A stretch of DNA of 64,000 bases from Pelagomonas calceolata (taxonomy: Eukaryota; Sar; Pelagophyceae; Pelagomonadales; Pelagomonadaceae), in the NCBI GenBank assembly GCA_918797485.1, contig CAKKNE010000003.1, positions 2,294,001 through 2,358,000 of the forward strand, read 5' to 3'. Of this stretch, positions 7,913-62,526 are shown in pieces; position 1 is the stretch's first letter; every line of letters starts with the position of its first letter. The translations under genes were made by a program, and so were the position numbers. The notes under the pieces were generated by a model that was not told the DNA's origin, did not search any database, and saw only the letters and a program-made list of their open reading frames with translations.

Positions 7913-9378
7913 CTATTTCCCCGGCGTGACTTTGGGAATGTCCGGGAAATTCGTCGGCGACTCGCACGACGTCGAGACGACGGAGGCGTCGGAGAGGTCC
8001 CCGCCCGGCGAGGTCTTCAGAGAACTCCGACTGGTGAACGCTTTGCGCCGGGCGACGGTGTTCTCCTCCAATCTGGGCGTATGATCGTACGTAAGCCGCA
8101 GCATCGACATGCAGCCGTCTTTGTCCGGGCCTGTGTGGAAATCAACCGGTGAGTCGCCTGCTCTTCACGAAGTCATTTCTCGGCGACGACGCGGCCGTGC
8201 TGGCTCCGCCGAGCGATGAGGAATCGCCACCGCCACGCTATCGAGCAGGCGTCGCGTCGATGGCGTGGAGGTCGACGCGACGATTCAGCACGAACGCGCC
8301 GTGAAGTTTGATCTAGACACAGGCGCAGACGCATCAGGTCGAACTCCGGGCGGGAGCACATGTCCGTCACCGTCGCGCGGATCGTCGGGTCGACGCGCAA
8401 GAATTGGGACACGAGCTGCTGGAGCTTCGGCGGGAGCGGCCCGTTCGGGCCGCCGAGCTTCACCCGTCCCACCGCAGCGTCCACCGCATCCCTAAAAGCG
8501 TTCGGGTCCTTCAAATCATCATATGGGGGACACCACAAATCGTCGAAGGCCCGGTGGCCGAGGACGCACTCCAGTACCACAGACCCCAGCGACCAGGCGT
8601 CGGCCAAATCTCCCCGGTACGACGCCTCGCAGAACAATTCCGGCGCGAAGAAGCCCGGGCTTCCGACAAAATCGGTCAGCTCGTGGCCTGATGATATGTC
8701 GGCACAGAGCCCAAAGTCGCACAACTTAATAATGCCCGCGTCCGGCAGGCCCTTGCCCCACGTCGCCGGCGAGCCCAGCACGAGCACGTTTTCTGGTTTT
8801 ACATCTCTATGCGCGATGCCCCGCTGGTGGCAGTGTCGCAAGGCCAGCGCCGCGATCCTAGCTATTGCCACGACCACCGGCTCCGGACAACCGCGGGGAT
8901 GGCCATCGAGAAAACTGAAAAGATCGCGTTCCCCGGCCTCGATGAAGCAGTACACATATGAAGACGATTGGACAACTTCGTACAACCGACACACGCCTTC
9001 ATGCCGTAATCGGTTCATCGCCTCGACCTCCAGATTGACCCTCCCAATGTTCCTTTTGGCCTTCAGGATCGACCCGCCGCGCGCGCGCTCGACCTTGGAT
9101 TTTTTAATGGCCTTGCACGCGACCTTCGCGCCCGCGCCCTCGCCCGACTTTCTGATACAGCTATAGACCGTGGCGAACTCCCCTTCTCCTAGTACTCTTG
9201 TAACTTCGTAGGCGCCGATCTGGGCCTTGCCGCCGGGGAGCGCCTTTTCGATCAATTTCGCGTCGAGCTTCGGGAGGTGCCCCGCGGCGGCCCAGGCGCT
9301 CGCGAGCTGGGCCTTGTCGGCGCCGTCGGGCGCTCTTCTTTGACGCGCGCGCCGCTCCGTCGCGTCGCCCTTGGCCAT
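7913..9378 (-). CDS. serine/threonine protein kinase, two exons
   Basis: Exon 1 is 9378-8331, the introner intron is 8330-8131 and exon 2 is 8130-7913; the spliced protein has 421 residues. All kinase landmarks are present: Gly loop LGEGEFATVY (63-72), Lys89 in VACKAIKK, an alpha-C Glu near 118, HRDVKPEN (190-197), DFG (221-223) and the APE of GFFAPE (245-247). The layout resembles CAMK/CHK-type kinases; the substrate is unknown. Without splicing the frame runs into the transposon and stops after about 50 foreign residues. With it, FDLM continues as RPDKDGCMSMLRLTYDH. An alternative donor four codon positions later (GTCTAG) also keeps the frame. The last 60 residues are Ser/Thr-rich. Confidence 0.8.
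8131..8322 (-). mobile_element. introner A (inverted-repeat DNA transposon acting as an intron)
   Basis: 192 bp. One end reads CTGTGTGGAAATCAAC and the other, inverted, CTGTGTCTAGATCAAAC. It lies in the kinase gene; on the coding strand it ends in TTGATTTCCACACAG, which supplies the 3' splice site. The flanking 8-mers (8123-8130 and 8323-8330) match at only four of eight places, so this is probably an older insertion or the duplication has drifted. About 115 bp at the acceptor end are nearly identical to introner B in the dynein gene, so A and B form one subfamily. Confidence 0.85.
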
Positions 9379-9880
9379 GGCGCCTCGTTCAAGCCTGGTT
9401 CAAATCCCAGCCCCAATTTCAAGCTTTGTACAGGGCCGCCCGGCAGCCCGCTCCTGGGGCGAGGCGCTTCCCTACGAAGGTGTGGGGTCCCGACGCGGGC
9501 TGCGGCTGCCCGGCGCGCCGGTCTCGGCGCGTGCGCGCTACTGCTACTCCTGCTCGTTTTGCGAGATGGCCCTTGTCACAAATCTACTGTGGACGCCTCC
9601 GTTCCCAGGGTTCCCGGCGACCAGTCCTCCGGACGCGTGCCAGGCGCCACTCGCCCCGAAACGAAAAACGCTAAGTTCCTAGTGTAAGCTGTAAGCTGTA
9701 GTCCAGGCTAGAGCCGTCCTGTGCAGCGCGGCGTAAAAAGTCGAGCAGAAGCAGCCCTTGGTCGGCCGGGAGGCGACCGGGCAGCTGCCGAGAACTGCAC
9801 GACCAAGCCCCAGAACAGCGGGCAGCGAAAACACCGCAGCCGCAGGGGCCCGAGGCTGCCCCAGCACCGCGAGGCCGACC
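9379..9880. other. divergent promoter region, kinase / dynein
   Basis: 502 bp. A half-palindrome CCTAGTGTAAG with two AAGCTGT copies lies at about 9679-9700, and a GAGGCTGCCCC motif at about 9851, 24 bp or so before the dynein ATG. A GGTTCAAATCC box near 9390 resembles a tRNA B box but no cloverleaf forms. Confidence 0.4.
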
Positions 9881-12800
9881 ATGGCGGACACGAAGAGCCT
9901 CCTGAAGGCCTCGCTGACGACGCGACGGGCGCGGGAGCTGGGCGATGCCGCTCATCTCGCGGGGACGTCCATGAGCGATACCAAAACGAAGGGTTTGGTC
10001 AGAGACAAGGCGAGGGCCGACGCCAAGTCCGAGCTGTTACAATCGCTCGAGACGACGCCGGTCAAGGAGATCGTCGGGCCGCTCGGCGGCTTTGTCGTTG
10101 ATCCAGAACCGTCGCCGACGGCGCCCGACATTTTACATTCTTCCGCGTTCGCGGCCACCTCTCATGTGAGAGACAAGAAAGCGAGACCGTTCGCCGGCGT
10201 CTCCACCAACAAAGCGAGACTAGCTGAGGTGGCTTCTTCGTACGTGGCACCTACCGACAGAATAGGCAAGCTCTACACGCCGACGGCCCAGCATCTAACG
10301 ATGAAAGATGCCGTACGAGTCAGCAAGTGGAAGAGCGAAGCGGAGAAGCTGGGCGCCCTGTGTGAAGATCCCTTGAGGGTCCGAGAACGCAACGCCCAGA
10401 AGAACGCCGAGACCTTGCCGGCGTGGCTCCTGCCCGACTGGGCGCAACAGACGCTCCGAGACAAGGCGCGCTCCGACAAGCTCGCTCGCAAATCTCGCAT
10501 AGCTCCTGTTGGTTATAAAGCGCAAGAGCAGGCCGCTTTATTTCTTGAGGAGACCGCGTCTCGCACAGATTATACCTCTGTGGGTAGCATTACGCAGATG
10601 GAGAGGGCTGGTGAGATAGATGCGCAGGAAGCTACTCAAAAGCGCAAAGAGCGGAAGGACGACGCTCGAGTACGTAGACGGGACGCGCGCGGCGAGACGC
10701 TCGACACCGTCGACGCCGCCGTGGGCAAGGCGCCCCTGCAGTGGGACCCGGAAAAATGGGAACCCGGAAAAGGTACGAAGAAGGCTCCTCGTGTTGTGGA
10801 GGAGTCGCCCGTCAAGCAAGCAGAGAAGTACCAAGTGTGTGTCGAGAACTACTGGGGTAGGGTTCGGACACTCACGCAGCGAGGGGCAGCTCATGCGGCG
10901 GGCGCGGGGACTCGCAGACCTATCGCTAACTTACCAGATTCTTGGTTGGGTGGCATCGCCGGAAGAGTAGCCCCGCCCGCCTCGCTGTTGAAGGAGCGAG
11001 CTCGCGTCCTGAAAGCACGTAAAGTAAGTGACACAGTGACGAGCGACGCCGTCGACGCATTGGCCGACGCGGAGCCGGAGCCCTGGTCCGTCCAGGCCGT
11101 CGAGCGGGCGGAAGCCGTCGCCGACGACGCCTTGGCCGAGACGAAGCTCGCCTTCTCCGACGGCGTGGCCCGGAGCATGGTCGAGTACGAATTGCGCGAC
11201 GGCGACGTCTGCCAGATGCACGCCATCGATCCTTCACGCTTAAAAGCGGCGCCGAAGTGGTGGACCTCCGATTTCTATAGGACGAACAAATGGGTCGTGC
11301 TGCGAGATACGGGCGTGTCTCGCCGCTCGGTGCATGTGGCCAAACATCATGCTGTGGATCGTTTACGGATTGTGGATCGGGTCATGTACGATTTACATGA
11401 AGCTTGGTTATTACCTAGAAGAGCTCGAGAACGAGCTTCTGCAGCCCGGTCGATCTCGACTTCTGTCAGTAGTCAACCTACCAAACCGCCCTTCTCGAGA
11501 GTGTTGCTGACCGATGTAGCTACCGATCAGTTCCGGAAGCGTTTACCTATGAGTCTGGATGACTTTTGCAAGCACGTCGACGGCCGGGCGAACGCGGTGC
11601 GGAACGCTCTCTCGGAAGAGTGGGTCCCGGCCTGCGCGTCGTTGCTCGCCGCTCACTTGGACGAGGGTGCTCCGCAAACCGATGACATGTCCAAGCTCGG
11701 CGAGCAGGTGAAGCAGTGGTGGGTAACGCCCTACGAGGGTCCCGATGTCTTAGATGGCTCGCTAGCCGGCGACAAGGCGGCCGACGCCTTCGACCGCTGG
11801 TTCGTGCGGACCTACGGGCCTGATGGGCTTGGGAGGCCCGACCATCGGCCCAAAGAGGCCAAACCACCGTCACCTACAAGGATGCGGGCGCAGAGATACA
11901 GAGAAGATACCGTTTTAGATTGCGCCAACATGCTCATGTCCACTCAGTTAAGATCTCTCGTGGAAGAGTCGCTGGACATGTTCGCGTCGTTCTTAGAACG
12001 GCACGACACGGACGAGACGCGTATTTCGTTGGAGGCGGCGCTCGAGCTCAAGTTGGTGGTGGCCGAGGAGGGCGTCGTCGCGCTGGAGCCCAGTCTCTCT
12101 GTATTAGAGGAGAGGCTTTGTCGGTGCATCGACCGGTGTGTCCTAGCTTCTAGGGACTTCCCCTGCGTGGACCAGGAGAATCTGCGGCCGCCGCCGGACG
12201 AAGGGCCCAAGCTCATGAGCGTTTTGGGCGACGACGAGGCGTCCGTCGCGTCGGTGGACTCGCTTGGTGCGGCGCCGGCCCCGGCACCGGCGCCGCCGCC
12301 CAAGAAGTTCCTCGGGCCCGCGACTGCATCCTTAACAGATGAAATCGTCGAGGCCATCAAGACTCGGGTGCGAGAGTGTTTGCGGAGGCGCTTCGAGACG
12401 CCGCAGTCGTTGGTGCCGAGATTTGCTGAATATAAACCTCTGGTCGATAGAACTCTATATCAGGAGGTCGTGAAATTGATCGAAGTCCACCGGAGGGACC
12501 CGGAAGATAAAGGCGACGCGGGCCGCATGGACGACATTGAGGAGGGCGCGACGGCCGATGCCATGCAAGCCTTGACCAAAAAGGCCAAAGAACTACGAAC
12601 GCTAGCTGCTTCCATACGTGCGACGACTCTGGACGTCGAAGACGCTCCCTTGTTCCGAGTGCTATGCCTCGAGTGCAAAGAGGTCCTAGCCACAAAGGCC
12701 GAGACGCTCTGTAAATTGATCAACGACGCCGTCGCGTGCGACAATCGCGACCACATGCGCGACGCTAATAGGCGCTACCAGCGTATTGCGGATAAGCTCG

Positions 12801-15800
12801 TCGAGGAGCCGACGTCGTCGGAGGAGCTCGGGCAGCTGAAGGAGTTCGCCGAAGAGGCACGCTCTCGGCGTTTTGAAGTGTTGCGGCGCCTTCACTTCAT
12901 TGTCATGAGTCGTCTCCACGAGAGAATGGTTTCTTTTCCGAGTTTGAGGCCATTCCGAGACCGCGACGCCCCGCGCAGGCCACGACGCTCCTCGAACACT
13001 TGGAGTTCGAATACCGCGAGGAGATTTATCAAAGACAGAAGTTTTTACTGGCCCAGGACCACAAGCTGAGCAAGGAGGACATGCAGCTCTGTGCGGAGAC
13101 GTACAACTGGCCGGGGGACATGGCGTCGTTCCTGAAGCGGTCCGAGGACCTGCAAAATGCTCGTACCAATCATTTGAAGGCCGTGGTCGAGGGCAAGAAC
13201 GACGCTCTTGGTCGCGATGTCGAAAGGCTCGAGAAGATGATCGAAGCATTGGCGGAAGAAAATTCCCTCGCGCCGGGGAACATTCCGACGGTCACGAAGC
13301 GCGTCAACGCTTTGAGGGACGGCTTGGAAAAGGCCACGGAGGAGTGCGAGGACATCCTCGCCCAGGAAGAAGTGCTGGAAATGGAGGGCACGGACTTCGA
13401 GGAACGCCTCAAGTGCGGATCGCGGCGTCCCTTCACGCCGTCGACGCGCGTCGTCTCTCGGAGAGGAGGCTTGAGCGCGTTTCGAGGTCGCGACGCGACG
13501 TGTCACACACAGGTCCTGCACCAAAGAATTCGGCCCCCTCGACAAGCTCTGGACCTGCGCCAAGGAGTGGGTCGAGCAGTCCCACGCCTGGCACGAGCTA
13601 CCTTTACCGCAAGTGGATGCGGAGGCGGCCGCGTCGAAAGCTGGAGAATTCGGCAGTCAGCTAGCGAGAGTCAGTAAAGTACTGGAGAAGAAGGGAGAGT
13701 CAAGAGAGAACGCCGCGCGGTGCTGCAAGCTCCTCCTCCAGGAGACGAAATCCTTCGAGGACGACGAGGCACCACTAATGCTCTTGGTCTGCGAGCCAGG
13801 AATGAAAAGTAGACACTGGGAGGAGATTAAAAGTACGACAAAACTGGAGTTTAGCGTGACGAGCGGCATGAACATGATGCAGCTCATGGACATCGGTTTG
13901 AACCACTACGTGCACCTCATCGAAGGTGCTGACTCGGCGTGAAAAATGAACTTGAACTTGATCTGGGGGAGGCGATGGCGTCTTCATGATCACCAGAGCG
14001 CCCACGCGCCTCGTGAGAGCGTCGCGGCCGTGTCGCGACAGTGTCGTTCCCACACAGACACGTGCGTCGCCGCGTCGAAGGAAGCGGCCCTCGAGAAGGC
14101 TCTGTCGAAGATGGAGCTGAACTGGGCCGACGCCGAGTTCGGCACGAAGGAGTGGCGCACCGGGCGTATTTTAGCTGGGATCGACGAAATTCAACAGGAG
14201 CTCGACGACCAGATCGTCAAGACGCAGGCCATGCACGGGAGCCGCTACGTCAAGCCCTTCCTTTCGAGGGTGGACGCCTGGGAACATACTTTGACTTCGT
14301 TGCAAGATATAATAGACAACTGGCTCAAGGTGCAAGCCGCGTGGTTGTACCTCGAACCTATATTTAGTTCGGATGATATCACGCGCCAGCTACCCACCGA
14401 GTCGTCGATGTTCACCGTCGTCAACGGCGTCTGGATCGAGTCCATGGCCGAGACGGCGCGGGAGCCTGCTGTTCTTTCTGTCGCTAGAAGAGAGGGCTTG
14501 TTAGACCAATTAACCGATGCCAACGAGAAGCTCGACGTGATCCAGAAGGGGCTGTCCGACTACCTCGAAACGAAGAGACTAGCCTTTCCCAGATTCTTCT
14601 TCCTGTCCAACGACGAGCTCCTAGAAATCCTCGCCGAGACGAAGGACCCGACAAAAGTCCAGCCCCACATGAAGAAGTGCTTCGACGGGATTGCGCACCT
14701 GGACTTTGATCCGGATTTGAACATCCTCGCGGCGTTAGATGCCCCACCTCCAAAGGGCGAGAGGTTAGAATTCACGTATGACCAGTGCGACCACAAGATG
14801 ATCAATCCCAAGGATAGCGGCGGCAACGTCGAGAAGTGGCTCGTCGAGGTCGAGACGATCATGAAGAAGTCGCTGGCGCTGTCCATCGATCTAGCGACTG
14901 ACGAGTTCTTCAAAATTGAACGGAGGCAGTGGCTCCGGAACTGGCCGGGCCAGACGATCTTGACGGTGAACCAGATCACCTGGGTCATGGCCATGGAGGC
15001 GGCGATCGAGAACGGCGGCGGGCCGGCCATCGCCGCGGTTCTGTCGCAACGAGTCGAGGAGTTGCTCGACGTTGTTGATACGGTGCGAGGCGACATCCCC
15101 AAACTACTGCGAGGTACGCTCGGCGGATTAGTTGTGATGGACGTGCACAACCGCGACATCACGGAGTGGCTGTCGAAGACTAGTATTAATACGGTCAGCG
15201 AGTTCGACTGGCAGGCGCAGCTGCGCTACTACTGGGACAACGACGGTGTTTCCTCCCAGACAGGAAAACCGGAGACGATCCCCTGCCGCATGATCAACGC
15301 CATGATCTTGTATGCCTACGAGTACATGGGCAACTGCGGGCGGTTAGTGATCACGCCCTTGACGGATAGATGTTATCGCACGCTCATGGGCGCTATTCAT
15401 CTCAACTTGGGCGGCGCGCCGGAGGGCCCGGCGGGCACGGGCAAGACGGAGACGACCAAAGACCTGGGCAAAGCCATCGCCATCCAATGTGTGGTCACGA
15501 ACTGTTCCGACGGCCTCGACTACAAGGCGATGGCCAAGTTCTTCAAGGGTCTTGCTGCTTCCGGTGCCTGGGCTTGTTTTGATGAGTTCAACCGTATTAT
15601 CTTGGAAGTGTTGTCCGTCGTGGCGCAGCAGGTCTTAACTATCCAACAGGCCAAAGCGCGCAAGGCCGAGCGGTTCATGTTCGAGGGCACGGATCTACCG
15701 TTAAGGATGACGTGCTGCCCGTTCATCACGATGAATCCCGGCTATGCGGGACGTGCGGAGTTACCCGATAACTTGAAAGTACTCTTCAGGACGGTGGCGA

Positions 15801-18800: not shown

Positions 18801-21800
18801 GAGAAGTACCTAATATATTTCCCTCGGACGAGCGTGTCGCGATCTGTGAAAAAGTCCGGCCCTTCGCGAAGGAGCAGTTCGGGCGCGCCGCGGGCGACAT
18901 GTCGCCGTTGCAGCTGTATGCGTACTTCATCCAGCGGGTCAAACAGTACTTGCATATTATTCTGGCCTTCTCGCCGATTGGGTCGGCGTTTAGGGATCGC
19001 CTGCGGTTGTTCCCTTCTCTCGTAAATTGCTGTGCCATCGACTGGTTCACGGCGTGGCCGGGAGATGCCCTGTTAGCTGTGGCAGAAAAGTTCTTGAAGG
19101 AAGTGAAATTGGACGACGAGGTAAGGCCAGCGATAGTGGACATGTGCATGACCTTCCACACGAACGCCCACGACCTTGCTGCGGAGTTTTTGTCCGAACA
19201 GGGTCGGATCACGTACGTCACGCCTACGTCATACTTGGAATTGATCGTAGCATTCAAGCTAGCTCTAGCTGAGCAGCGCGAAAAGATCACGGCGGGCAAG
19301 GACCGGTACCAGAACGGCCTCAAGCAGCTCGCGGGTGCCGAGGACAACGTCGCGACGATGCAGGTCGAGCTCACGGATCTCCAACCGGTTTTAGCGGAAG
19401 CCCAGGTCGCGACCGACAAGCTCATGGAGGAGATCGAGGCGAAATTGCCCGGGGTAAGAGAGCAAGAAGAAGTGGTAGGTGCGGAGGCGGCCGTCGCGCA
19501 GAAGGAAGCGGATACGGTACAGATCGAAGTGGACTCCGTGCAGGCCGATTTGGACGAGGCGCTGCCGGCGTTAGAAAGTGCGGTCCAGGCCTTGAACACG
19601 ATCAACGACAAAGATATCGATGCGGTCCGTAAGTTGTCCAAGCCGCCCGCTACCGTAAAACTGGTGGCGGAAGGCGTCTGCGTCATGCTCGGCGAGAAGC
19701 CCGTGAAGATCCCCGACCCCGACGATAGCTCAAAGAAGATCATGGACTACTGGGCGCCCTCACAAAAAATGATGGGCGACAAGGGCTTCATCCCTCGCCT
19801 GAAAGAGTATGATAAGGACAACATCTCCCCAAAAATCATGAAGACCATAAGGACGACCTACATGCCCAACGAGAAGTTCAACGCCGAATCCGCCGCGAAG
19901 GCGTCGTCGGCGGCCGCGGGCCTCTGCAAGTGGGTCCTGGCCATGGAGTGCTACGATCGGGTGGCCAAGGTCGTCGCGCCGAAGAAGGAAGCTTTGGAGA
20001 AGACGCAGGCGGCTCTGGCCATTACGATGGGTGAGCTCAACAAGAAGAAGGCGTCGTTGAAGGTGGTCCAGGACGATTTGGCCGCTCTCCAAGCCAACTT
20101 AGCTGGAGCGGAGAAGAAGAAGAAGGACCTGTTGGACCAGGTCGATCTCTGTGGCAAGAAATTGGTCCGGGCGAAACAACTCATTGAAAGTTTGGGTGGC
20201 GAGAAGACGAAGTGGGGCATCTTCGTCGAGGAGCTCGACGCGGCCTACATCAACCTGACGGGTGACGTACTTGTATCTGCCGGTCTGATGGCCTACTTGG
20301 GGCCGTTCACCTCGACCTTCCGCATGCGCCAGATGGCGACGTGGATCGAGACCTGCAAGAAGCTGTCCATTCCCTCGTCCGAGAAGCCTACCTTGATAAA
20401 CACGCTGGGCGACCCCGTGAAGATAAGGCAATGGAACATCGAAGGGTTACCTACTGATGATTTCAGTGTAGAGAACGCCATCACGATCTTCGCGGCGCGA
20501 CGGTGGCCGCTCATGATCGACCCTCAAGGGCAAGCGAACAAGTGGATCCGCCAGATGGAGGCTCCCAATAAATTGAACGTGCTGAAGATGTCGGGCGAGT
20601 ATATGAGAAATATGGAATCAGCCATACAGTTTGGTTTTCCTGTTTTACTGGAAGACGTCGGCGAGGTCCTCGACGCGACGCTAGAGCCGCTACTCCTAAA
20701 GCAGATCTTCAAGCAAGGTGGGGTGGATTGTATCCGACTCGGCGACGCGACGATCGAATACAGCGAGATGTTCCGCTTCTACATCTGTACCAAATTGCGG
20801 AACCCGCACTACGTGCCGGAGATTAGCGTCAAGGTGACGCTGTTGAACTTCATGATCACGCCGCAGGGTCTCCAGGACCAGCTTCTTGGTGTTGTTGTCG
20901 CTCGCGAGCGAGCGGATCTCGAGGAGAAGAAGAACGAGCTCGTGCTGGAAGGCGCCGAGAACAAACGCAAGCTCAAGGAGATCGAGGATCAAATTTTAGA
21001 GATCCTGTCGGGAGAAGGCAACATCCTCGAGAACGAGACGGCCATCGTGACGCTGAATCAATCCAAGGTCACGTCCGACGACATCAAGGCCAAGCAGGCC
21101 GTCGCGGAGAAGACCGAGGTCGAGATCGACAACGTCCGGAAAGGCTATACCTCGGTCGCGTACTCGACGCAAGTCTTGTTCTTCTGCATCGCGTGCCTCG
21201 AGAACATCGAGCCCGTCTACTCCTACTCCCTAGACTGGTTCATCAACCTGTTCGTGGCGTCCATCAAAAACAGCGAACCTGCTAGTGATGTACCTACTAG
21301 ATTGGACAACTTGTACAACCACTTCATCTATTCGTTATACAAGAACATCTGTCGATCTTTATTAGAGAAGGACAAGTTACTCTTCTCCTTCGTGCTAACG
21401 ATACGTATCTTGCAAGGTAAGAATGAACTCGATGACGCCGAGTGGCTCTTTTTCCTGACGGGCGGCGTTTCTCTGGACAACAAGCACGAGAATCCCGCCG
21501 AGGACTGGTTAGCAACGAAATTATGGAACGAGATCTGTTTACTAGACGATATACCAGCCTTCAAGGGTCTCAGGGAGCACGTCGACCGGACGCCGCACCA
21601 GTGGCGGACGCTGTATGATTCGACGGATCCCCAGGAGGAGCCCTTGCCTGGTAGATGGGATAAATTAGAAGGCTTGAAGAGGTTGTGTATCTTGAGGTGT
21701 ATTAGGCCGGACAAGGTCGTGCTGGGCGTGCAGAAGTTTGTCATAGCAGCGATGGGCGAGAAGTTCGTGCGGCCGCCGCCCTTCGACCTCCAGGCGTGTT

Positions 21801-24034
21801 ATGATGAATCTTCTTGTGTGCAACCTCTCGTGTTCGTCTTGGCTCCTGGGAGTGATCCGATGGGTTCGGTCCTCGAAGCGGCCGAAGCGATTGGGAGGGA
21901 GGTCGGTCCGATTTCTCTCGGACAGGGCCAAGGACCGGTAGCGGAAGCTTTGATAGAAAAATCGCGCAAGGAAGGCTCCTGGGTCGTTCTGCAGAACTGC
22001 CACTTGGCGGAGTCGTTCATGACCCGCTTCGAGGAGATCTGCGATAAATTGGCCGAACCGCGGCCGCACGAGAACTTCCGGTTGTGGTGCACGACGTGCC
22101 CGTCGCCCATCTTCCCGACGGCGGTCCTCCAGAACGGCATCAAGATGGCCATCGAACCGCCGAAGGGTTTGCGGGCGAACTTGGTTGGTTCCTATTCCGC
22201 GGCGCCGATCGCGAACCCGGGATACTTGGAGAGCAATTCTAAACCCGAAAAGTTCCGGAAACTCTGCTATTCGCTGTGTATCTTCCACGCTTTGTTGCAG
22301 GAACGACGGTTGTACGGCCCCCTGGGCTGGAACATCCCCTACGGCTTCAACGAGTCGGACATGCTCATCTCGCTGCAGCAGTTGTTCGCGTTCCTGGAGG
22401 AGAACGAGGAGACACCGTTTAAAGCTTTGAAATACTGCATTGGGGAGTGCAACTACGGCGGGCGCGTGACCGACGGGAAGGACCGGATCACGCTCAACAG
22501 CATCATGGAGCGGTTTTTCAACGAAGACGTGCTCGAGACGGGCTACAAGATGTCTGATAGTGGAACGTATTCCATCCCCGCCGCCGAAACGCGGGAACAA
22601 TTCCTGGAGGTCATCGAGGGCCTGCCTTTAGTGGCCCCCCCGGAAATCTTCGGCTTCCACGAGAACGCGAACATCACCAAGGACACGAAGGAGACGAACG
22701 CCATGTTCGCGACCTGTTTGCTCTGTGAAGGTGGGGGTGGTGGCGGTGGCTCCGGTGATAAAGACGCTACTATAGCGACTACAGCAGGGGACATCAAAGA
22801 GAAGCTCCCCGCGGCGTACGACATGGAGCAAGCAGCTATATCTTACCCAGTACTGTGGGAGCAAAGCATGAACACGGTGCTCTGCCAAGAATTAGCGCGA
22901 TTCAACAACCTGACGAACGCGATGAAGAAGTCGCTGATTGACGTCGAAAAAGCCGTGAGGGGTATTGTAGTGATGTCCGGGCCGCTCGAAGCTTTGGGCG
23001 ACTCCTTGGTCTACGGCGCCATCCCGGCCATGTGGAAGGCCAAGTCCTATCCTTCCTTTAAACCTTTAGCCGGCTACGTGACCGATTTACTCGAGAGATT
23101 GAATTTCTTGAATGAATGGTTGTGCGAGAAGCCGCCTTCCACCTACTGGATCTCGGCCTTCTTCTTCCAGCACGCCTTCATGACGGCCTCGAAGCAGAAC
23201 TATTCTAGAGCCGAAACGATTCCCATCGACGCGATTGGTCTGCAGTTCGAGATGCTTCCCAGCAGTTCGTACGCGAAGCCGCCGGCATTGGGCGTCTACG
23301 TCTACGGCTTCTTCTTCGAGGGCGCGCGCTGGGACAAGAAGCAGAAACGCATCCTGGAGAGCGAGCCGAAAGTCCTGTTTACGACGGCGCCGCTCATGTG
23401 GTTCCAGCCCAAAAGAACGGTGCAGATCCGGCATCCTCCCTCATATCTATGCCCGGTCTACAAGACGGGCGATAGAAGAGGGATTTTGGCGACCACCGGA
23501 CACAGCACAAATTTTATATTGGACATAAACGTGCCGAGCCGTGCGGAAATCAACGTTACGGCGCCTTCACGCCGTCGTCATGATATCGGAGAGGCTCGTT
23601 TCCTAGAATCATGGCGGTGGGTGGTCTTTTTTTCGAATTTGAGTTGTTTTCGGGCGCGTCGGGGCCCGGACCATGAGAGTACTGGTGAAAGGTCGAGAAT
23701 TCGTGCTGTGCGCCGATGGGGCGCGGCCGGGGGGCTCCCGGCGTCGCGCCGACGGCGTTGGTGTGTCTTGGGACGCCTATCCCGTGCCGTCGGCGGCCGC
23801 CGTCGCGGCGGCCGCCGTCGCCCGGCACGCCGTCGACGCGGCGCCTGCTCGATGGCGTGGCGATGCCGGTTCCTCGCCGCTCGACCGAGCCAGGACGGCC
23901 GCGTCGTCGCCGAGAAATGACTTTGTGAAGAGCAGGCGACTCACCGGTTGATTTCCACACAGGTGCCGAGCGACGTTCCCCCAGAACATTGGGTCCAACG
24001 GGGCGTCGCGATGCTGTCGCAGCTGGATGACTAA
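9881..24034 (+). CDS. axonemal dynein heavy chain, inner-arm single-headed type, five exons
   Basis: Exons 9881-12928, 12979-13412, 13513-13925, 14058-23530 and 23963-24034 join in frame to 4479 residues, the usual size for DNAH1/3/7-class chains. The ATG at 9881 has a good context (GACCATGG). Walker A loops: AAA1 GPAGTGKTETTK (about 1754), AAA2 GAPFSGKTS (about 2036), AAA3 GPTGTGKSVS (about 2437), AAA4 GVGGSGRQS (about 2802, Arg for Lys as is normal). The coiled-coil stalk and microtubule-binding tip span roughly 3040-3350. A Gly8 run lies in the C-terminal region. The last exon gives HWVQRGVAMLSQLDD, the conserved dynein C-terminus, which proves the last intron (introner B). Introns 1-3 (50, 100 and 132 nt) restore frame and conserved text such as FGPLDKLWTCAKEW and TCVAASKEAALEKAL. 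The protein is the motor of flagellar inner arms. Confidence 0.92.
13413..13512 (+). other. dynein intron 2, possible decayed introner
   Basis: A 100-nt intron starting GTGCGGATC and ending CACACAG. It shares CCTTCACGCCGTCG near its 5' end with introner B, and both its start and its end resemble introner tips, but no target duplication is left. It may be an older insertion; chance similarity is possible. Confidence 0.4.
23539..23962 (+). mobile_element. introner B (longest copy, in dynein)
   Basis: 424 bp with ends CCGTGCGGAAATCAAC and GTTGATTTCCACACAG. It is flanked by a perfect 8-bp duplication GTGCCGAG at 23531-23538 and 23963-23970. The left duplication gives the GT donor and the element's last two bases the AG, so the intron is 23531-23962. 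The acceptor-side 115 bp match introner A. The middle carries unique sequence and a GC-rich block with repeated GGCGGCCGCCGTCG units around 23794-23820. Nothing coding is evident in it. Confidence 0.92.
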
Positions 24035-24089
24035 GGAGAGGGAAATGTAGGTTCTAGTCTTCGTTGCGTTCAAGTTCGTCGATTACTCG

Positions 24090-24958
24090 CTAGGGCGCCG
24101 CGGATCGGGCGCGGAGGGCGTCTCGCGCTTCTCGCAATCCTTCCTCTATCGCTACCATGAACGGATGGGCGCCACCGAGCAGGCGCCGCGTAATCCGTTC
24201 CGCGTCCTCGAGCGTCGTCACTGCCTCGCGGAGATGGTCAAGCGTGGCACACTCGTTTTCGTAGAGCGCCCGCGCGAAAAGGCACCTCATCTTGATCGTG
24301 GCGCACGCCGCCGCTCCCAGTAGCGACAGGCAGACCTGGTGGTAGTCCGGAAGGTGGGCGTACCTGTGTGGAAATTAATCAGTATGGCGTGGCAGACGAC
24401 GCGATGATTTAGCACGAACGCGCCGTAAAATTTTGATTTCCACACGGGCGCGTACTTGTTATCCATAGGCACGACGATGATATACGCCAACGCGTGATGC
24501 ATGACGATGAACGGAAATAGACCCCGCGGGCAACGCGCCCAGCCCCAGCGGTCTGATACGTCGCCGTGGAACGTCGCCACATAGACTTGTATTTGGCTAA
24601 ATAAGTCCCAACCTAGGTCTAGCAGGGAACCGAACAAAAACATGTCCTGATACGTCTCGCTCGCGCCCCATCCGTAGATCACGACCGGTAGCATGAGCGA
24701 GCCGCAGGTGGCGTGGAACATGAACGCGAGGATGCCTCCAGCCCACGCCCTCAGGCAGTGCTCGTCGTCGCACCAGTCTTTCGGCGTTCCCATGCCTATA
24801 GAGACGTGGCGCTGCAGTTCTAGGCAACGGGGCATCCACTTCTGTCGGAGGCCCCAACGCTCGACGAGGGGCTGGACGACGATAGTAAATAGCCCGGAGA
24901 CGACCGCCAGGGCGGCGGCCCAGGCCCAGAGCGTGGAGGTGTCGCGTTCGATTATCAT
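24090..24958 (-). CDS. multi-pass membrane protein fused to a TPR-type tail, two exons
   Basis: Exon 1 is 24958-24456, the intron is 24455-24364 (introner C) and exon 2 is 24363-24090; the product has 258 residues. The first 200 residues have about five hydrophobic segments (LWAWAAALAVVSGLFTIVV, LAFMFHATCGSLMLPVVIYG and others) and MHHALAYIIVVPMDNKYA, which looks like a TLC-type or related membrane family. After splicing the text continues as HLPDYHQVCLSLLGAAACA and then changes to TIKMRCLFARALYE with LREAVTTLEDAERITRRLLG. That is the end of a kinesin-light-chain-like TPR protein of a kind I associate with this lineage. The switch from membrane to TPR text suggests a chimera. Function unknown. 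Converges with dynein, 55 bp apart. Confidence 0.65.
24364..24447 (-). mobile_element. introner C
   Basis: 84 bp, the smallest copy, with ends CTGTGTGGAAATTAATC and, inverted, CCGTGTGGAAATCAAAA. The flanking 8-mers GGGCGTAC (24356-24363) and GCGCGTAC (24448-24455) differ at one base. On the coding strand the duplication begins GTACGCGC and gives the GT donor; the element end CACACAG gives the acceptor. Its interior (ACGGCGCGTTCGTGCT) matches introner A and, more loosely, D. Confidence 0.9.
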
Positions 24959-49200: not shown

Positions 49201-49989
49201 CCGCAGGTTGGTCGTCACCGGTAATGATGAATGGCGAGAAGTCGTGGAGGAGCACTGTGCTTCCGAAAGGGGCATTGCGGCGGCTTCGGCGCCGGACGAA
49301 CCGGAGCCGGCGTCGCTCGCCGCCTTGGCCGACGTGCGACGCGCGGCGCCGACGCCGCAGCCGACGCGCGGGGCGTGTTCCGTTTCCTATGTTTCGTTGC
49401 CGCTGGTGGCGCTCGAGGGGCCGTCGCCGTTACAAGCTGCAAAGGCTGAACTTTCCAAGCTCATGGCCGCGGCTTACGTTGTCATCGCGCCGGCCGGCTC
49501 GACGGGCTGCTTCCTAGCTTTAGAGCATGGCCTCCCCGTGGCCGCTCCGCTCAACTCCACGTGCGGCGGCCTCGTGGTCACCTGTGTGGAAATCAAAATT
49601 TTACGGCGGGTTCGCGCCGAATCGTCGCGTCGACCTCCACGCCATCGATGCGACGTCACTGGTTGATTTCCACGCAGGTGGTCACGACGGGCAACGGAGC
49701 GTCGCCTCTGACGTTCTTCGACGACAACGCCGATTCGCTGACGAAGGCCCTGTCGTACGACGAGACGACCTGGGGCGTCGCGGCGCGCGCTGCTTTAGAA
49801 GTCTCGCTCAAGCTCGCGTCGTCGACGGACTGGCTGCGCGACGCGACGCTGCGAGGCCTGCTCAAAGGTTCGAACGGCGACGACGCGTGCGCGGCTTTGC
49901 ACCCGGAGCCGTCGCCGATCGACGCCGCGCTCGACGCGTCCCTGCTGGACGCGCTCCGGTCGGCGGTCCTCCTGGACGATGTGATGTAA
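46205..49989 (+). CDS. Golgi-type sulfotransferase/glycosyltransferase fusion, two exons
   Basis: Exon 1 is 46205-49573, the intron is 49574-49677 (introner D) and exon 2 is 49678-49989; 1226 residues. A short cytosolic N-terminus and one span (CWLLLATAFGALLSNSWATF) give type II topology, then a coiled-coil stem (ELAKLRKDNAELGKLRDELA). Residues about 195-360 resemble a sulfotransferase: AGLSRSGSTWQF (PAPS 5'-phosphosulfate loop) and FVFSSHRDLRDVLLSS (3'-phosphate site). A central segment (HVFFSDTKGAAVALL ... SSDYVFLVAPGVQL) looks like a Fringe-like GT-A domain, and the last part (RRILLVRDAPLRHLEGADA ... LEHGLPVAAP) a GT-B domain. A role in sulfated glycan synthesis in the Golgi is inferred. 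Confidence 0.7.
49582..49677 (+). mobile_element. introner D
   Basis: 96 bp with ends CTGTGTGGAAATCAAAA and TGGTTGATTTCCACGCAG, flanked by a perfect 8-bp duplication GTGGTCAC (49574-49581 and 49678-49685). The left duplication supplies the GT donor. The interior (ACGGCGGGTTCGCGCC ... CCTCCACGCCATCGATGCG) is shared with A and, in part, with C and F. Confidence 0.93.
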
Positions 49990-50006
49990 TAACACAACAG
50001 TTTTAG

Positions 50007-50858: not shown

Positions 50859-50867
50859 AGCGCGCAG

Positions 50868-52096: not shown

Positions 52097-52298
52097 CGCC
52101 CTACCGCGCTTACAGGAATTGTTCGACCGACGGGAATTCGGCATTGGTCCTTGTCCTCGATAGCTACGACGAGGCCGAGGAGCCGTACGAGGACGCGTTC
52201 TCGCAGGACATGGCCGCTGATTTGTATGGCGCGACGCAGGTCAGTAATTTGTGTGAAGTATACTTCTCAACTTACTCTGTCCTAGCGCGACGGATGGG

Positions 52299-55620: not shown

Positions 55621-55951
55621 GTGACTTGTATGAATTAGCCTACCAGAAGTACATCCGCACTGGATCTCCGCGTCGCCCCAAGCCAGTCCATCGAGGCGAC
55701 GGCGGGAGGGCCACGTCAAGCGGCACCGCCGCGTCGTCGTCTTTTTGTCCGCGAGGGCACCTCTATACCGGGTGCGCGAACTGCGCCACGACGGCAATGA
55801 GCGCGAACAGCGCGATCCCGGGCGCGAGCACCGTCAGACCGAGCTCCGCGTCGACGCGTGTTGTTAAAAGGAGGGAGGCGTGGGGCGCGGGCCTGCTCGC
55901 GCGCGACTGAGTTTTGTAGTCACGATAACTTGTGTTAGTCCACCCGGTAAC
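55621..55951. other. intergenic region between convergent genes
   Basis: 331 bp, the largest gap between convergent stops in the window. A frame is open but without protein-like text. Probably 3' UTRs. Confidence 0.35.
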
Positions 55952-57052: not shown

Positions 57053-57553
57053 GGTTGTTTCGTGTGGGTGCGGCGGTTTCGGCTGCAGTGGCGTTTCTTC
57101 GCTTTCTTCGCGGCGCAGTGAGCTCGCGCTGTGGGCACAGCGCTGGGCTACTGGCGTAGTCTGTGCGTGCTTTGGGGCGTCGCTTGTGAGGCGCCGCGCT
57201 CGAGAGGGCGCGAGTTTTTGAGCCGCCTAGTGCGTGTTGCGGTAGCTTTCCGAGCACTGCTGGTAGCCCTTGCGGGCCGAAACGCACGCGCCGCCAAACC
57301 TAGGCAGAACTTTGCAGGCCTGAGCTGCCGGATGACCGTGTTGTTTGGTGCCCAGGCCGTGCGTGCCGTCGGCGTCGTGCGACCATAAACGATGGCCCGA
57401 CACACAGCAAGACGTGATTCAATGACGTATCGAGCGACCTGAGCGGTTGCCGCAGTCGTGAGCATTCCTGGGAGGCTGGGCCCCAACAGTGCCAACACAC
57501 TACTGCTCATCCAGCGCGTCGCGAGCGCGGACGCGACTCGGTAATCAAAAGCG
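57053..57553. other. divergent promoter region
   Basis: 501 bp between starts at 57052 and 57554. There is no full palindromic element; a weak CCTAGTGCGTG lies near 57227 and GGAGGCTGGG near 57472. No coding text was seen. Confidence 0.35.
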
Positions 57554-59494
57554 ATGCTCGAGCTCTACTTGACATACCTCATCCTCCTGGGCGCGGCCCG
57601 GTTACTCTTCCAGCTCTCGCAGCTCGCCACGGCAATAATCGTCGGCGGCGCTTTAATGGCCTATGTTCATAGGAAGGACCTGGCCTCTGCTTGGCTCAAG
57701 AGTTTCTTTGGGTTAGATGTCCAGATCAAGGGTGAATTAACGTTAGAAGTCGAGTGGCGCGCGGGTGCGAATAACACGCGCCTCGAGCAGCCTTCTACCT
57801 TGACAAAGTTACGATCTATACTAACAACGCTAAGAGCGAGGTATCGTGACGGCGAGAACCCCATCAGCAAGATCACGTGTCGGATTCGAGATGTCCGAGT
57901 GTATGCGCCGCCGCCCTCTCGCCCGAAGACAGAAAAATGTCTACAGGTGGACACGTTAGTATTGCGGTTCCGATGTCCTTCCCGCACCACGATTCCGGAC
58001 GACGGCGATCCTAGAGGAGAGGCTCGAGTCGTCCTGTCTGTGGCGGCGCACAACGTGCACCTTCAAGTCGCGGCCTACGATTTGCAGTTCTCGGACACGT
58101 CGCTGACACGAGTGTTGAGACGTGTCAAGGACACCTTCGTCGCGCGGGGCGGGAAACGCCTTAAAAAGATAAGGAGGAAGGACCCCGTGCACGCGTGCAT
58201 CGTGACGGACAGGTACGGGGAATTTCACGTCCAGCCCTTCACGTCGTCCGACGTAGCTGTCTTTGAATTTGCTGTTGCAAGCCCGGCCTACGCCTGCGTG
58301 CTCTTTGAGCGTACTCCAACGGGATGGCGTAGAACATCAGCCTATGGCCTAGAATATGCGACGAAAGTTATCGAAGCAAGAGCGCTAGGCGACGACTTGG
58401 GCGGCGGGTTGCTCGACGAGTACTCGTCGGATCAGAACGATGTCTCAGTACCAAGGACCAAGCGCTATCTGCGGACGGAGTCCGTCACGATCGCGCGAAT
58501 AAAAGTGACCGCGGCCTACTGCGAGGAGGACGCCGCGACGGGTCTCGTGAAGCGACGACGACCGCTGGGCACGGGCGCCATCGTGCGCCACGTCAGTGCG
58601 GAAGGTTTGGGGACGCGGCTCGGGTTTTTCGCGTGGTTGAATCGGTTAGCTCTCAAATCCTTGGCCTCCACGGGCCTCGACGCGCTGAACAAGGGTGTCC
58701 ATCGGGTCGCTGCTTTGTTACAAGAGGAACCAACCGATGAGGGGGAGTCGAAGCTCTCGTCGGCCAAAGTTGCGTTACGAGGGGCTGCCGATGGGGGCGG
58801 AGCTGTGTTGAGGGGCATTACGCGCGGCGCCAAGGGGGCCGTGACATCTATCGTAAGAGCGGTGCGCGACGGCGACACGATCGAGGTTTTGTCCTACTTC
58901 TGTCGCGTCGCGGATGAATCGATCGGAGGTGTGCTGAAGGGTGCCACCACTTCGTTAGATGGCGTCCACGACGGCCTGGGCGCGGTGCTGGACACGGCGG
59001 CCGCGACGATGACGCGTGTGCCCGTGGCCGGCGACGTCGCCGGCGGTGGCGTGAACGCGGCGAGGCACGTTTTGTCAGCGGCGTTCGGCGCCGTGCGCGG
59101 CGTCGTGTCTGGGGCGTTCCTGGGCTGCCGCGCGTATGTGAGAGGGGTCATCGTGGACCGGGATCCGTTGCGGGCCATGGGCGCGTCCTCGGCACTCTTT
59201 GCTTCTGGATTGGCCGATGGCGCGCGGGATCTGGGCGGCGGGCTCGCGCGGGCGTCGGAGGACGCGCGGCACGGCGTCGGTAGAGCTGGTAGGCGAGCCG
59301 GCGCGGCCTTCGATTGTTTGAGGAGCGCCGGGCCGCCAGACGCGAGTGCGGCGCCGGTGAATGGTCTGAATGGTCCGGACGACGGCGAGGCGGACTTCTC
59401 GTCGTCGGACTCCGACGACACGCCGCGCGTGGACCCGGACGCGTTCCGTCGACGGTTAGCTCGGCACGCGCGGCGCGCCGACGGCCCGAACTAG
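57554..59494 (+). CDS. membrane-anchored protein of unknown function
   Basis: 646 residues, ATG at 57554, one exon. The N-terminus has one or two membrane segments (LYLTYLILLGAARLLFQL, ATAIIVGGALMAYV). A beta-rich region follows to about 340 (VQIKGELTLEVEW; CRIRDVRVYAPPP; CLQVDTLVLRFRC; RVVLSVAAHNVHLQVAAYDL), reminiscent of the repeating strands in chorein/bridge-type lipid-transfer proteins, but far shorter. After that comes a Gly/Ala-rich helical stretch (GAADGGGAVLRGITRGAKGA) and an acidic tail (DFSSSDSDDTP). Function not assigned. Converges with the LRR gene, 5 bp apart. Confidence 0.55.
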   Translation: MLELYLTYLILLGAARLLFQLSQLATAIIVGGALMAYVHRKDLASAWLKSFFGLDVQIKGELTLEVEWRAGANNTRLEQPSTLTKLRSILTTLRARYRDGENPISKITCRIRDVRVYAPPPSRPKTEKCLQVDTLVLRFRCPSRTTIPDDGDPRGEARVVLSVAAHNVHLQVAAYDLQFSDTSLTRVLRRVKDTFVARGGKRLKKIRRKDPVHACIVTDRYGEFHVQPFTSSDVAVFEFAVASPAYACVLFERTPTGWRRTSAYGLEYATKVIEARALGDDLGGGLLDEYSSDQNDVSVPRTKRYLRTESVTIARIKVTAAYCEEDAATGLVKRRRPLGTGAIVRHVSAEGLGTRLGFFAWLNRLALKSLASTGLDALNKGVHRVAALLQEEPTDEGESKLSSAKVALRGAADGGGAVLRGITRGAKGAVTSIVRAVRDGDTIEVLSYFCRVADESIGGVLKGATTSLDGVHDGLGAVLDTAAATMTRVPVAGDVAGGGVNAARHVLSAAFGAVRGVVSGAFLGCRAYVRGVIVDRDPLRAMGASSALFASGLADGARDLGGGLARASEDARHGVGRAGRRAGAAFDCLRSAGPPDASAAPVNGLNGPDDGEADFSSSDSDDTPRVDPDAFRRRLARHARRADGPN

Positions 59495-59499
59495 TTTTG

Positions 59500-61158
59500 T
59501 TAAATCTGTGGTCCCTTACTCTTTGGAGCTTTGGCCGCGTTGTTGGCGATGGCCTCTAACACGATCGATGAGCCGCCAGTCTTCCGCCGCTTCTTCAAAG
59601 CAGCTGACACCAGCCCTCTGTGCGACGGCGTCAGGCCGACGTCCTGCAACCCCAGCCATTGTAAGGAAGGAAACTTTGCTGGCGACCGCAATAATCGAGC
59701 GCAGAGACTCAGAGCGTCCGACGAAGGCCCGTCGTCCTTTGTCTGTGGAGCGACCTTCGACGTGATCTTGGCGAGCTTCTGGACGACCTTGGGATTTTTC
59801 TTTGCTGCTCTACGTTTCGCCTCGACGGTCGTCAGGGCGTTGCCTGTGTAATCAACCAGTGAGTTAGGTTATCTGCGTGGACCTTCGTGAGCCTCGACGC
59901 CATCGAGCCGATGCGGCCACGGGGACGACGTCGCGTCGATGGCGTAGAATCTCCACGCCATGGAGCAGATGCAGTTACGGAGACGACGTCGACGGGCGTC
60001 CGAAATTTGATTTCCACACAGGGCGTTGCCCGAGAGGTCCAGTACCTCTATACTAGATTTTGCGGCCTGTTTCAGAAAAGCCTCCCCATCTAGTGGAGTG
60101 AACGCGCAGCTTGCCACGGACAGGGTTTTGAGGTGCGGCGCGTTTTTCAGTGACAAGCGCGCGCCCTGGAGGTCGTTCCGTCTCAGATCCAAGACCGCGC
60201 ACTCCCGCATGAGGTCATTCGCACCCTTCGCCGACAGCAGGTTCTCGCCCACGTCTACGGCCACGTTTGGCAAGCCGGCGTCGCGCCGCGCTTTCAGCGC
60301 CCGCGCTAATGCAACAGCGCCGCCGTCCGAACAGCCCGTGTTCCGCAGATCCAACACTTCGAGTGCTGACGCCGTCCTCACGAAGGCCTTCGCGAGAGCT
60401 ACGATACCGGCGTCGCAGATCCGCGCGTTGCCCCGCAGCGAAAGCCGCTTTAGGGAAGAAGCGTGAGGTGTCAATAAGTCGGCCAGCCCACTAATATCCT
60501 CCAGCCCCAAATGCTCCAATTCCAACACTTCGAGCGTCGCGGTCGCGTTCATTCTCTTAAGCTTCGCCAGGTCACAGTGGCCGCACGCGTCGCGCTTGAC
60601 CCGCAACCGTCGCCCCCCTCGACACAGGGCCCACTCGAGCAACGTTTCAAGACCGCCGTCGTCGATCCTCGCATCGGCTATACCTATCTCCGTCACGACG
60701 CCTTGCCTCGACGCGAGCCTCAACAACGCGGCGCAGCCCTGTTTACCAAGCTTCGCTTCTCTACATAATACACAAAGTATTTCCGTAGGCACCGGCTCCT
60801 CGACCACAACCTCCTCGTCCTCGTCCTCGTCCGCGACCGGTGCCAGCACCGGCTCCTCGCTCAATGCATTAAAAGTGCGCGCGACGGCGCGCTGCGTCTC
60901 CCTAGCTTTCCTCGCTGCCTGCCGCGCGTCCCGTTCCTGGATGCGGCGCGCGGCTTGCGCGTCAAGGGCTCGGACTTGTTGTGCCAGCGTAGAGCCGTCG
61001 GTCGCGGCCGGCACCTCTATTGTTGCTTCTGATAACGTGCCTAGTTTTTCAGCTTGTGGCAGCACTGACAGAATGTAGTCGCGCCCGGCGGGTCCCAGTC
61101 CGCGCGGCTTGGCATCAATCTGTGCAATGCATAGCAGGAGCAGTGCAGCGAGTTGCAT
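59500..61158 (-). CDS. secreted leucine-rich repeat protein, two exons
   Basis: Exon 1 is 61158-60030, the intron is 60029-59844 (introner E) and exon 2 is 59843-59500; 490 residues. A signal peptide (MQLAALLLLCIAQIDA) is followed by a charged helix (RIQERDARQAARKARETQR) and an acidic run. From about residue 180, LRRs of the RI/NLR type follow (LEVLELEHLGLEDISGLADL; LKRLSLRGNARICDAGIVAL; LEVLDLRNTGCSDGGAVALA; IEVLDLSGNAL). The intron cuts the last repeat (SGNAL). After splicing the text continues TTVEAKRRAAKKNPKV and ends in a Lys-rich tail. The donor is GC, from the target duplication GCAACGCC; GT choices shift the frame. A secreted or luminal LRR scaffold is likely. Confidence 0.75.
59844..60021 (-). 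mobile_element. introner E (GC donor)
   Basis: 178 bp, ends CTGTGTAATCAACC and, inverted, CTGTGTGGAAATCAAAT, flanked by perfect 8-bp duplications GGCGTTGC (59836-59843 and 60022-60029). It lies in the LRR gene on the minus strand, where the duplication reads GCAACGCC and gives a GC 5' splice site. The GTGAGTTAGGTTAT block near one end is shared with introner F. An internal near-duplication (GTCGATGGCGTAGAATCTCC and similar) makes it longer than C, D and F. Confidence 0.9.
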
Positions 61159-61533
61159 CGCACGGCTGTCAGCGATGCAGCAGCGGTCAAAGTGTCACTT
61201 GTAGTGATCGATGCAGTCGTTTGCGATTGCTCAATGCAGTCGTGCGCCTTGCGCGGCCTCCAGCTGTGCATGCAATTGCAAAATGCAGAGGGCCAAGGCT
61301 CGTCGGCAAAATCGAGGATCGGTCCGCGCCACCCGTCGCCACGCGTCGTGGGAGTGGTGCTTTTGATACAGAACCGAGACAACGCGGGCCTCAGAATTAA
61401 GAGCCCCGGCTCGCTCCCGCATCCAACGCGGCCTGCTCTCGTCGCAGCGCAGCCCGTAAAACGCACCGCACAGCCCGGTGCGTGCTCCGACGTTGCCTCC
61501 AGGCAGCCCCCGCGCAAAGAACCCGCAACAACC
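61159..61533. other. divergent promoter region, LRR / EF-hand
   Basis: 375 bp with a GGCAGCCCCC motif at about 61503, 30 bp before the EF-hand ATG. No palindromic element was found. The right-hand frame is open upstream without an ATG. Confidence 0.4.
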
Positions 61534-62526
61534 ATGGGTGGCGGCGTGTCCATGCCGGCGGTGCCGGTCTCCGCCTCGACGGAGGCCGCCCTCAAGAAGT
61601 TGTATGAAGAGAAGAAGGCCGCGGGCGAGGAGGACGACGCCATCAACGCCGCGCTCGCCGCTGCCACGCCGGCGGTTATTGTGTTTAATCAGATTGACAT
61701 TGACGGCAGCGGCAGCATCGACACCGGGGAATTGAAGCGCCTGCTCAAGGGCCTCCCTAGAAACAAGCCGACGGACGGCTCGCCCTTCGTCCCCTTCGAG
61801 GAGATGGCGTCGACGCTCGGCGGCGACGATGCCCAGATCTCCTTACTAGAGTGGGTGGATAACCTGGCCAAGTTACCTGGTCTGAAGACGGCCATCGAGT
61901 CGAATTTAGATCCGGCTACGGGCAAACTAGCTACTTACTTATCCCTCGAAGCGCGCCTCGAGAAGCTCGCGGCCGACGTCATGATCCTCGAGATGAACGA
62001 GAACCGGACCGACGAGGAGAACGAAAAGCTCGAGTCGAAGCGCAACGACGTGTCGAAGCTGCGGGCGAAGATCGGCTCCGGGTCGATCAGAGTCTTCGAG
62101 CAGATTGATGCTGATAAGAGTGGCAAGATCGAGCGCGCGGACCTGATGAAGATTCTGGGCGAATTACCCGGAACCCAAGAAGGCGAGTACCTGCGTGGAA
62201 ATCAACCAGTGAGTTAGGTTATACGGAGACGACATCGCGTCGATGGCGTGGGGCGCCCGAAATTTGATTTCCACACAGGCGAGGACAACCTCGACGGCCT
62301 CATCAAGGCGCTCGACGTCGACGGCGACGGCATCATCGACATGGACGAGTGGATCGCGCAGCTCGACAAGATCCCGTTGCTCAAGGCACAGCTCGACCAG
62401 TACATCGACCCGGCCACCGGTCTCATCAACACCGAATTGACGGGCCCGATGAAGCCGCCGACGGCCGAGGCGACGATTCCTCCGGCCGACGCGCCCGCTG
62501 AAGAAGCAGCTCCCGCCGCCGAGTAG
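61534..62526 (+). CDS. N-myristoylated EF-hand calcium-binding protein, two exons
   Basis: Exon 1 is 61534-62182, the intron is 62183-62278 (introner F) and exon 2 is 62279-62526; 298 residues. The start MGGGVSMPA fits N-myristoylation, like the NACHT protein at the left end. EF loops: DIDGSGSIDTGE (about 55-66), a degenerate one near GGDDAQISLLEW, DADKSGKIERAD (about 192) and DVDGDGIIDMDE (about 229). The first, third and fourth have the acidic x/y/z/-z ligands. A long charged helix (MILEMNENRTDEENEKLESK) separates the pairs. Only removal of the intron joins the third and fourth EF hands; the donor must be GC to keep frame. Probably a membrane-tethered calcium sensor. Confidence 0.85.
62191..62278 (+). 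mobile_element. introner F (reversed orientation, GC donor)
   Basis: 88 bp, ends CTGCGTGGAAATCAACC and AAATTTGATTTCCACACAG. The flanks GCGAGTAC (62183-62190) and GCGAGGAC (62279-62286) differ at one base. Compared with A-E the element lies the other way round relative to its gene: the GTGAGTTAGGTTAT side, which is next to the acceptor in E, is next to the donor here. Both ends can therefore serve as 3' splice site. Confidence 0.9.

Follow-up and report, generated by a model that had tools for sequence, protein, structure and literature searches.

We analysed a stretch of 64,000 nucleotides of the alga Pelagomonas calceolata (assembly GCA_918797485.1, contig CAKKNE010000003.1, positions 2,294,001 to 2,358,000), hereafter the window. 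Judging from their sequence, six short elements in it are copies of one high-copy inverted-repeat transposon family acting as introners. More precisely, the family is very probably one of non-autonomous DNA transposons that make spliceosomal introns on insertion. In the mechanism that we propose, transposition would duplicate 8 bp of exon, and the upstream copy, which must start with GT or GC on the sense strand, would become the 5' splice site. The terminal inverted repeat, ending ...TTGATTTCCACACAG, would provide the 3' splice site and, since it is present at both ends, the element would be functional in either orientation. Splicing would then take out the element and one 8-mer, restoring the original reading frame and making the insertion nearly silent.

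The 15-mer found at the element ends (CTGTGTGGAAATCAA), searched with at most 3 mismatches, has 11 matches in the window for 0.67 expected, a number reached by none of 100 shuffles, and a twelfth end, at 59844, has a 3-base deletion within the 15-mer. An earlier note on this DNA had described six elements with shared ends and 8-bp duplications, lying in frames that only make sense once the element and one 8-mer are removed. All six are present where it had placed them (Table 1), and the sequence bears out its account of the duplications: 3 are perfect, 2 have one mismatch and the one in the kinase gene is decayed (4 of 8 bases matching). The host genes are on the + strand for the copies at 23539, 49582 and 62191, and on the - strand for those at 8131, 24364 and 59844. 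On the gene strand, the upstream 8-mer starts with GT or GC in 6 out of 6 copies (GTCTGCGC, GTGCCGAG, GTACGCGC, GTGGTCAC, GCAACGCC and GCGAGTAC), and when the element and this 8-mer are excised in silico the frame is open across all six junctions. This open frame is the support for the predicted introns at 24364 and 49582 (the host protein of the former had zero Pfam matches), while the junctions in the dynein, leucine-rich-repeat (LRR), EF-hand and kinase genes, 4 of the 6, have additional support at the protein level. A profile search of the window with both subfamilies of the element gave no seventh convincing copy. Two weak profile matches, at 19292-19371 (E 0.018) and 55653-55701 (E 0.034), could be either old relics or chance.

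Table 1. Introner copies of the window, their duplications and the predicted introns (positions within the window).
Feature	Position	Strand	Details
Introner in protein kinase gene	8131..8322	-	intron 8131-8330; Pkinase Pfam E 1e-45
Kinase intron, splice motifs	8131-8330	-	sense donor GTCTGCGC, acceptor CACACAG; duplication decayed
Kinase duplication, exon copy	8123..8130	-	sense GCCCGGAC
Kinase duplication, intron copy (5' splice site)	8323..8330	-	sense GTCTGCGC
Introner near 3' end of dynein heavy chain gene	23539..23962	+	424 bp, longest in the window; intron 23531-23962
Dynein duplication, intron copy (5' splice site)	23531..23538	+	GTGCCGAG
Dynein duplication, exon copy	23963..23970	+	GTGCCGAG
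Introner in gene without name	24364..24447	-	84 bp; intron 24364-24455; sense donor GTACGCGC
Duplication of the 24364 copy, intron copy	24448..24455	-	sense GTACGCGC
Duplication of the 24364 copy, exon copy	24356..24363	-	sense GTACGCCC
Introner inside 1,229-codon open frame	49582..49677	+	96 bp; intron 49574-49677
Duplication of the 49582 copy, intron copy	49574..49581	+	GTGGTCAC
Duplication of the 49582 copy, exon copy	49678..49685	+	GTGGTCAC
Introner in LRR gene	59844..60021	-	178 bp; GC donor; intron 59844-60029
LRR duplication, intron copy, GC donor	60022..60029	-	sense GCAACGCC
LRR duplication, exon copy	59836..59843	-	sense GCAACGCC
Introner in EF-hand gene	62191..62278	+	88 bp; GC donor; intron 62183-62278
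EF-hand duplication, intron copy	62183..62190	+	GCGAGTAC
EF-hand duplication, exon copy	62279..62286	+	GCGAGGAC

The family is abundant in the genome. Scanning its 32,445,274 bases in eight contigs, we found 1,562 perfect 15-mer ends (790 and 772 in the two directions) and none with the reversed pattern used as a control; 48 elements carry two perfect ends. There are two subfamilies, A and B, and full-length type A elements measure 203 bp. Inward of the 15-bp repeat the left (L) and right (R) ends are unlike, so the orientation of an element can be read. We collected 88 records (the window, the loci L031 and L032 of a hAT transposon, and loci around introner ends), from which 98 elements were paired, false pairings included. 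The sampled loci were those at the first zero-mismatch + strand ends of contig C1 (L001-L030 and L048-L087) and the first 15 of the 48 elements with two perfect ends (L033-L047). Having been chosen from perfect ends, the sample is biased towards young copies and does not stand for the whole genome. The duplication has at most 2 mismatches in 73 of the 98 pairs and is a perfect 8-bp repeat in 39. These 73 well-duplicated copies are 60-206 bp long, except for the 424-bp copy of the window, and 17 full-length type A copies (15 sampled and 2 from a PP1 gene) have a median identity to the consensus of 95.6%. Longer relatives of the 424-bp copy exist at L088:154-601 (448 bp) and L089:343-936 (594 bp), the latter appearing to contain an internal inverted repeat; both are short, and no autonomous copy was seen among these fetched long relatives.

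The host strand was called from the codon usage of the flanks with a model trained on the six window genes, a strand being clear when it scored at least 15 with a 5-point lead over the opposite one; given this training, independence cannot be claimed for the four window copies included in the 73. The strand is clear in 70 of the 73 copies, and in all 70 the sense duplication starts with GT (55) or GC (15), when only 16.1% of random coding sites in the window do so. In 48 of these copies a single end qualifies, and it is the sense end in 48 of 48 cases. The three copies with an unclear strand fit as well once their genes are identified by Pfam: one is in a U1-zinc-finger gene (L001, + strand) and two are in a C2-domain gene (L071, - strand). 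Hence, codon usage (70 copies) and Pfam (3 copies) place all 73 well-duplicated sampled copies in genes. Across the genome, 987 of the 1,562 perfect ends are preceded at the right distance by GT (645) or GC (342). A fit to these counts, in which sense ends always qualify, antisense ends do so in 31% of cases and stray copies in 17%, suggests that about 95% of the copies in the genome obey the rule. With a coding background of 5.3% GT and 12.3% GC, a given GT site is about 8.5 times as likely to be occupied as a GC site. The claim of the earlier note that the donor comes from the host and the acceptor from the element is thus supported by both the sample and the genome-wide counts. Its statement that no copy lies between genes stands for the window and for the 73 well-duplicated copies; several decayed single ends are in weakly coding stretches (L012, L053, two in L063, and L069) and may be exceptions. 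We dropped the idea of an enrichment in genes: 3 of the 73 copies score as weakly coding, against 13% of random window sites, and since those three proved genic, a low score does not mean an intergenic position and no enrichment is claimed. The U1-zinc-finger gene (L001:1065-1990), whose product we take to be a U1C-like 5' splice-site recognition factor, is itself the host of an introner copy.

The two orientations are used equally. Among the 67 of the 70 clear copies that have readable ends, the L end is upstream in 34 and downstream in 33. Both ends therefore serve as acceptors, and what they have in common is the 15-bp repeat; this short repeat probably holds all the 3' splicing information that the two ends share. 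In the window, the same end is on the acceptor side in 5 of 6 copies and one subfamily B end reads CTAAC upstream of the acceptor, which had suggested an orientation bias or a branch-point preference; both ideas were abandoned in view of the 34 to 33 count. We also compared acceptor and donor sides in the C1 sample, using the 59 of 73 left ends with a clear strand and a partner matching at least 5 of 8 duplication bases, after removal of a false pairing (L022). Of the right ends, none of the 28 at the acceptor side had lost its AG, but 5 of the 31 at the donor side had. The same pattern, donor-side ends losing bases while acceptor ends keep AG, does not support RNA pairing of the inverted repeats as a required feature, although this evidence is weak.

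Several observations weigh against the mechanism proposed here. Among the sampled pairs, 25 of 98 fail the duplication cut, in part because they were falsely paired. A further 9 ends, with 1 mismatch or none, have no partner, and some of these are in weakly coding stretches. Two of eight C1 copies with good ends and weak duplications (L005 and L087) lack GT or GC at the expected place; so do, on both strands, L043 and L044, whose ends are perfect and which show no recognisable duplication. The AG comparison is borderline when taken alone (p = 0.054; 0.012 when the window six are added). A mobilising transposase with the introner ends was not found among the six families searched. Finally, the antisense end starts with GT or GC in 22 of 70 copies, above the 17% expected (p = 0.0035), so some target-site preference contributes, mild and symmetric. 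This last point, together with the location of all well-duplicated sampled copies in genes, is what favours an alternative in which the transposase needs GT/GC sites in transcribed genes and the donor rule reflects the choice of target instead of selection for splicing. We regard this alternative as unlikely, since a symmetric preference predicts the antisense end in half of the asymmetric cases, whereas all 48 have the sense end, and an excess as small as that on the antisense side falls far short of a rule followed in 100% of copies. Selection after insertion, and not insertion targeting alone, would best account for the donor rule.

Comparison with relatives points to recent gain. Three window genes were compared with public protein clusters (90% clustering), some of whose short contigs may be transcripts. 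We inspected 13 of 24 matches for the EF-hand protein and 20 of 24 for the LRR protein; the kinase search gave 752 matches, of which 120 were listed and 10 inspected whole, plus the tails of P0049-P0099. In the LRR gene, the window intron is absent from all 18 non-self clusters that reach the site, including P0042, which is 66% identical. Eight of these 18 enter an introner with an implied 8-mer at a GT located 17 bases downstream of the window site; two of them (P0036 and P0037) have contigs of 10,490 and 9,300 bases. In the EF-hand gene, 7 of the 9 clusters with at least 86% identity are contiguous through the window site, including P0004 (cluster contigs up to 40,555 bases). Two others, P0007 and P0008, have an introner at exactly the window site with different interiors, and P0006 has none there and runs into one 17 codons later. 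In the kinase gene, the 3 closest clusters that reach the site among the matches listed (P0050, P0052 and P0074; contigs up to 28,641 bases) all lack the intron; P0049, P0051, P0053 and P0091 do not display the site. Introner-like read-through occurs farther downstream in P0052 and P0074, and in a related kinase P0088 enters an introner at a place where P0072 has none. The relatives' EF-hand and kinase genes (P0005, P0049 and P0052) contain further small read-through insertions without an introner end, possibly from other intron families.

These comparisons agree with the recent gain proposed in the earlier note: the 3 window genes tested are all contiguous in proteins of relatives, and introners occur elsewhere in the same genes. 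The empty-site comparison it had called for, made here at the protein level, gives contiguous sequences at the LRR, EF-hand and kinase sites. That gain is ongoing, as the note also had it, agrees with the differences in presence and absence among relatives, from which it is deduced and not witnessed. A contrary view is that the introns are old and were lost in the relatives. Presence and absence alone do not prove the direction of change, and the 19 LRR clusters form an almost star-like tree, from which no definite number of gains follows. Yet old introns appear quite improbable given the absence from every non-self LRR cluster reaching the site, the three perfect duplications among the six of the window and the high identity of full-length copies to their consensus. 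We thus see good evidence in these sequences that introner insertion is lineage-specific and the gain recent. At about 10% divergence in the LRR protein, the relatives may be other species. Since introners are at differing spots among them, introns seem to be newly formed in nature, and the family is probably segregating now in wild Pelagomonas, whose lineages differ both in intron presence and in the positions of introners within one gene. The downstream introner of the LRR clusters (P0025-P0043) is scattered over the star-like tree, which may reflect recombination of haplotypes.

The proteins themselves are restored by the predicted splicing. The C-terminus of the dynein is gap-free across the junction in two alignments with solved dyneins. 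A PP1 gene elsewhere in the genome has two introners, and removing both gives a gap-free alignment to a solved PP1 relative. The spliced LRR translation, which uses a GC donor, includes the whole of a deposited P. calceolata protein of 490 residues (P0025), with which it is identical; MMETSP is among the sources of that cluster. One could still imagine gene-breaking transposon insertions without splicing, the exons being chance open frames, as long frames of this kind are common in a GC-rich genome, but the dynein and PP1 alignments, the identical LRR protein and the strict sense donor rule make this extremely improbable. A spread through RNA, of the kind suggested for fungal introner-like elements, in which excised introns are reverse-spliced and then reverse-transcribed, would account for the well-duplicated sampled copies all being sense introns in genes. 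It is nevertheless very improbable: the inverted repeats, the 8-bp duplications and the balanced orientations fit DNA transposition, and excised intron RNA would be expected to carry the donor 8-mer along. The PP1 gene is present at two chromosome ends, L090 (C6:3895400-3896200) and L091 (C3:13250-14050), with 792 of 793 aligned bases identical and the same two introners. These loci correspond to the ends that Guerin et al. 2022 (PMC9481584) describe as duplicated between contigs 3 and 6 in the genome of strain RCC100, in which six nuclear contigs total 32.4 Mb and the plastid and mitochondrial sequences come in addition. In the second PP1 introner, the intron copy of the duplication starts with GC and the exon copy with AC, a change in the exon that looks synonymous.

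The elements would be moved by a putative transposase acting in trans. We searched hAT, MULE, IS256-type, Merlin, P and KDZ transposases in six frames, where a gene is seen exon by exon and could be hidden by introns. The hAT search (PF05699) gave a single match in the genome, in an element of 3,651 bp (L032:4550-8200; C4:4499549-4503199). Its 20-bp inverted ends (CAGGGCAGCAGAAGGGCAAG) and 8-bp duplication (TTGCTCGC) are perfect, and its transposase-like open frame of 721 codons includes a hAT dimerisation domain. The introners have the 8-bp duplication in common with hAT transposons, but the ends of this element differ from theirs, and no introner end (at most 3 mismatches) occurs in the 10-kb stretch around it. 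By eye, this hAT element lies within a + strand gene whose sequence goes on at either flank, and the sense duplication begins with neither GT nor GC. The MULE (PF10551), IS256-type (PF00872) and Merlin (PF12762) searches had no match in the genome, with positive controls in 3, 5 and 1 of 14 genomes, respectively; those for P (PF21787) and KDZ (PF18758) had no match here nor in any control genome. Viruses were considered as carriers and set aside, as no viral contig scanned had an exact match to any of one whole-element and three end patterns; records near this genome may be missing from that collection.

DNA-transposon introners were reportedly described in Aureococcus and Micromonas by Huff, Zilberman and Roy in 2016. 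By their description in the main text of Gozashti et al. 2022 (PMC9860276), these are likewise short inverted-repeat elements that duplicate their targets and become introns. The same text reports introners in 175 genomes, some families taking the acceptor from the element and the donor from the duplication and some using up to 50% GC donors, with homology between introners of different species only when these are recently diverged, within a genus; it makes no mention of Pelagomonas. Those of Symbiodinium microadriaticum (its Fig. 2B legend) share the splice logic and the inverted repeats but have 4-bp duplications, against 8 bp here. The only work that we found naming both Pelagomonas and introner is that of Guerin et al. 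2022 (PMC9481584), whose main text calls an intron-length peak near 210 bp in P. calceolata characteristic of introner elements. Introners in this species are therefore already in print, and in the same genome our 203-bp element plus 8 gives 211, near that peak. That main text describes neither the sequence of the ends nor a duplication, a rule for splicing or subfamilies, and makes no comparison with relatives. Hence, the mechanism is already known, while in the main-text literature searched we found no definition of the Pelagomonas family, no statistics on its donors and no such comparison.

The origin of introns is a long-standing question, and here the sequence of a culturable ocean alga lets one follow insertion, the recruitment of splice sites and a distribution that differs between lineages. 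The orientation-neutral design, with an acceptor at both ends and a donor from the target, would explain how a cut-and-paste element can be nearly harmless in genes. If the empty sites of the relatives hold in DNA, the rate of gain and the fate of new introns would be measurable in nature. If the family is indeed segregating, its frequencies in ocean metagenomes would give a direct measure of intron gain, of the age of alleles and of the selection acting on brand-new introns. The GT/GC rule, strict and with a marked preference for GT, would then offer a natural assay of the minimal 5' splice-site information needed by the spliceosome.

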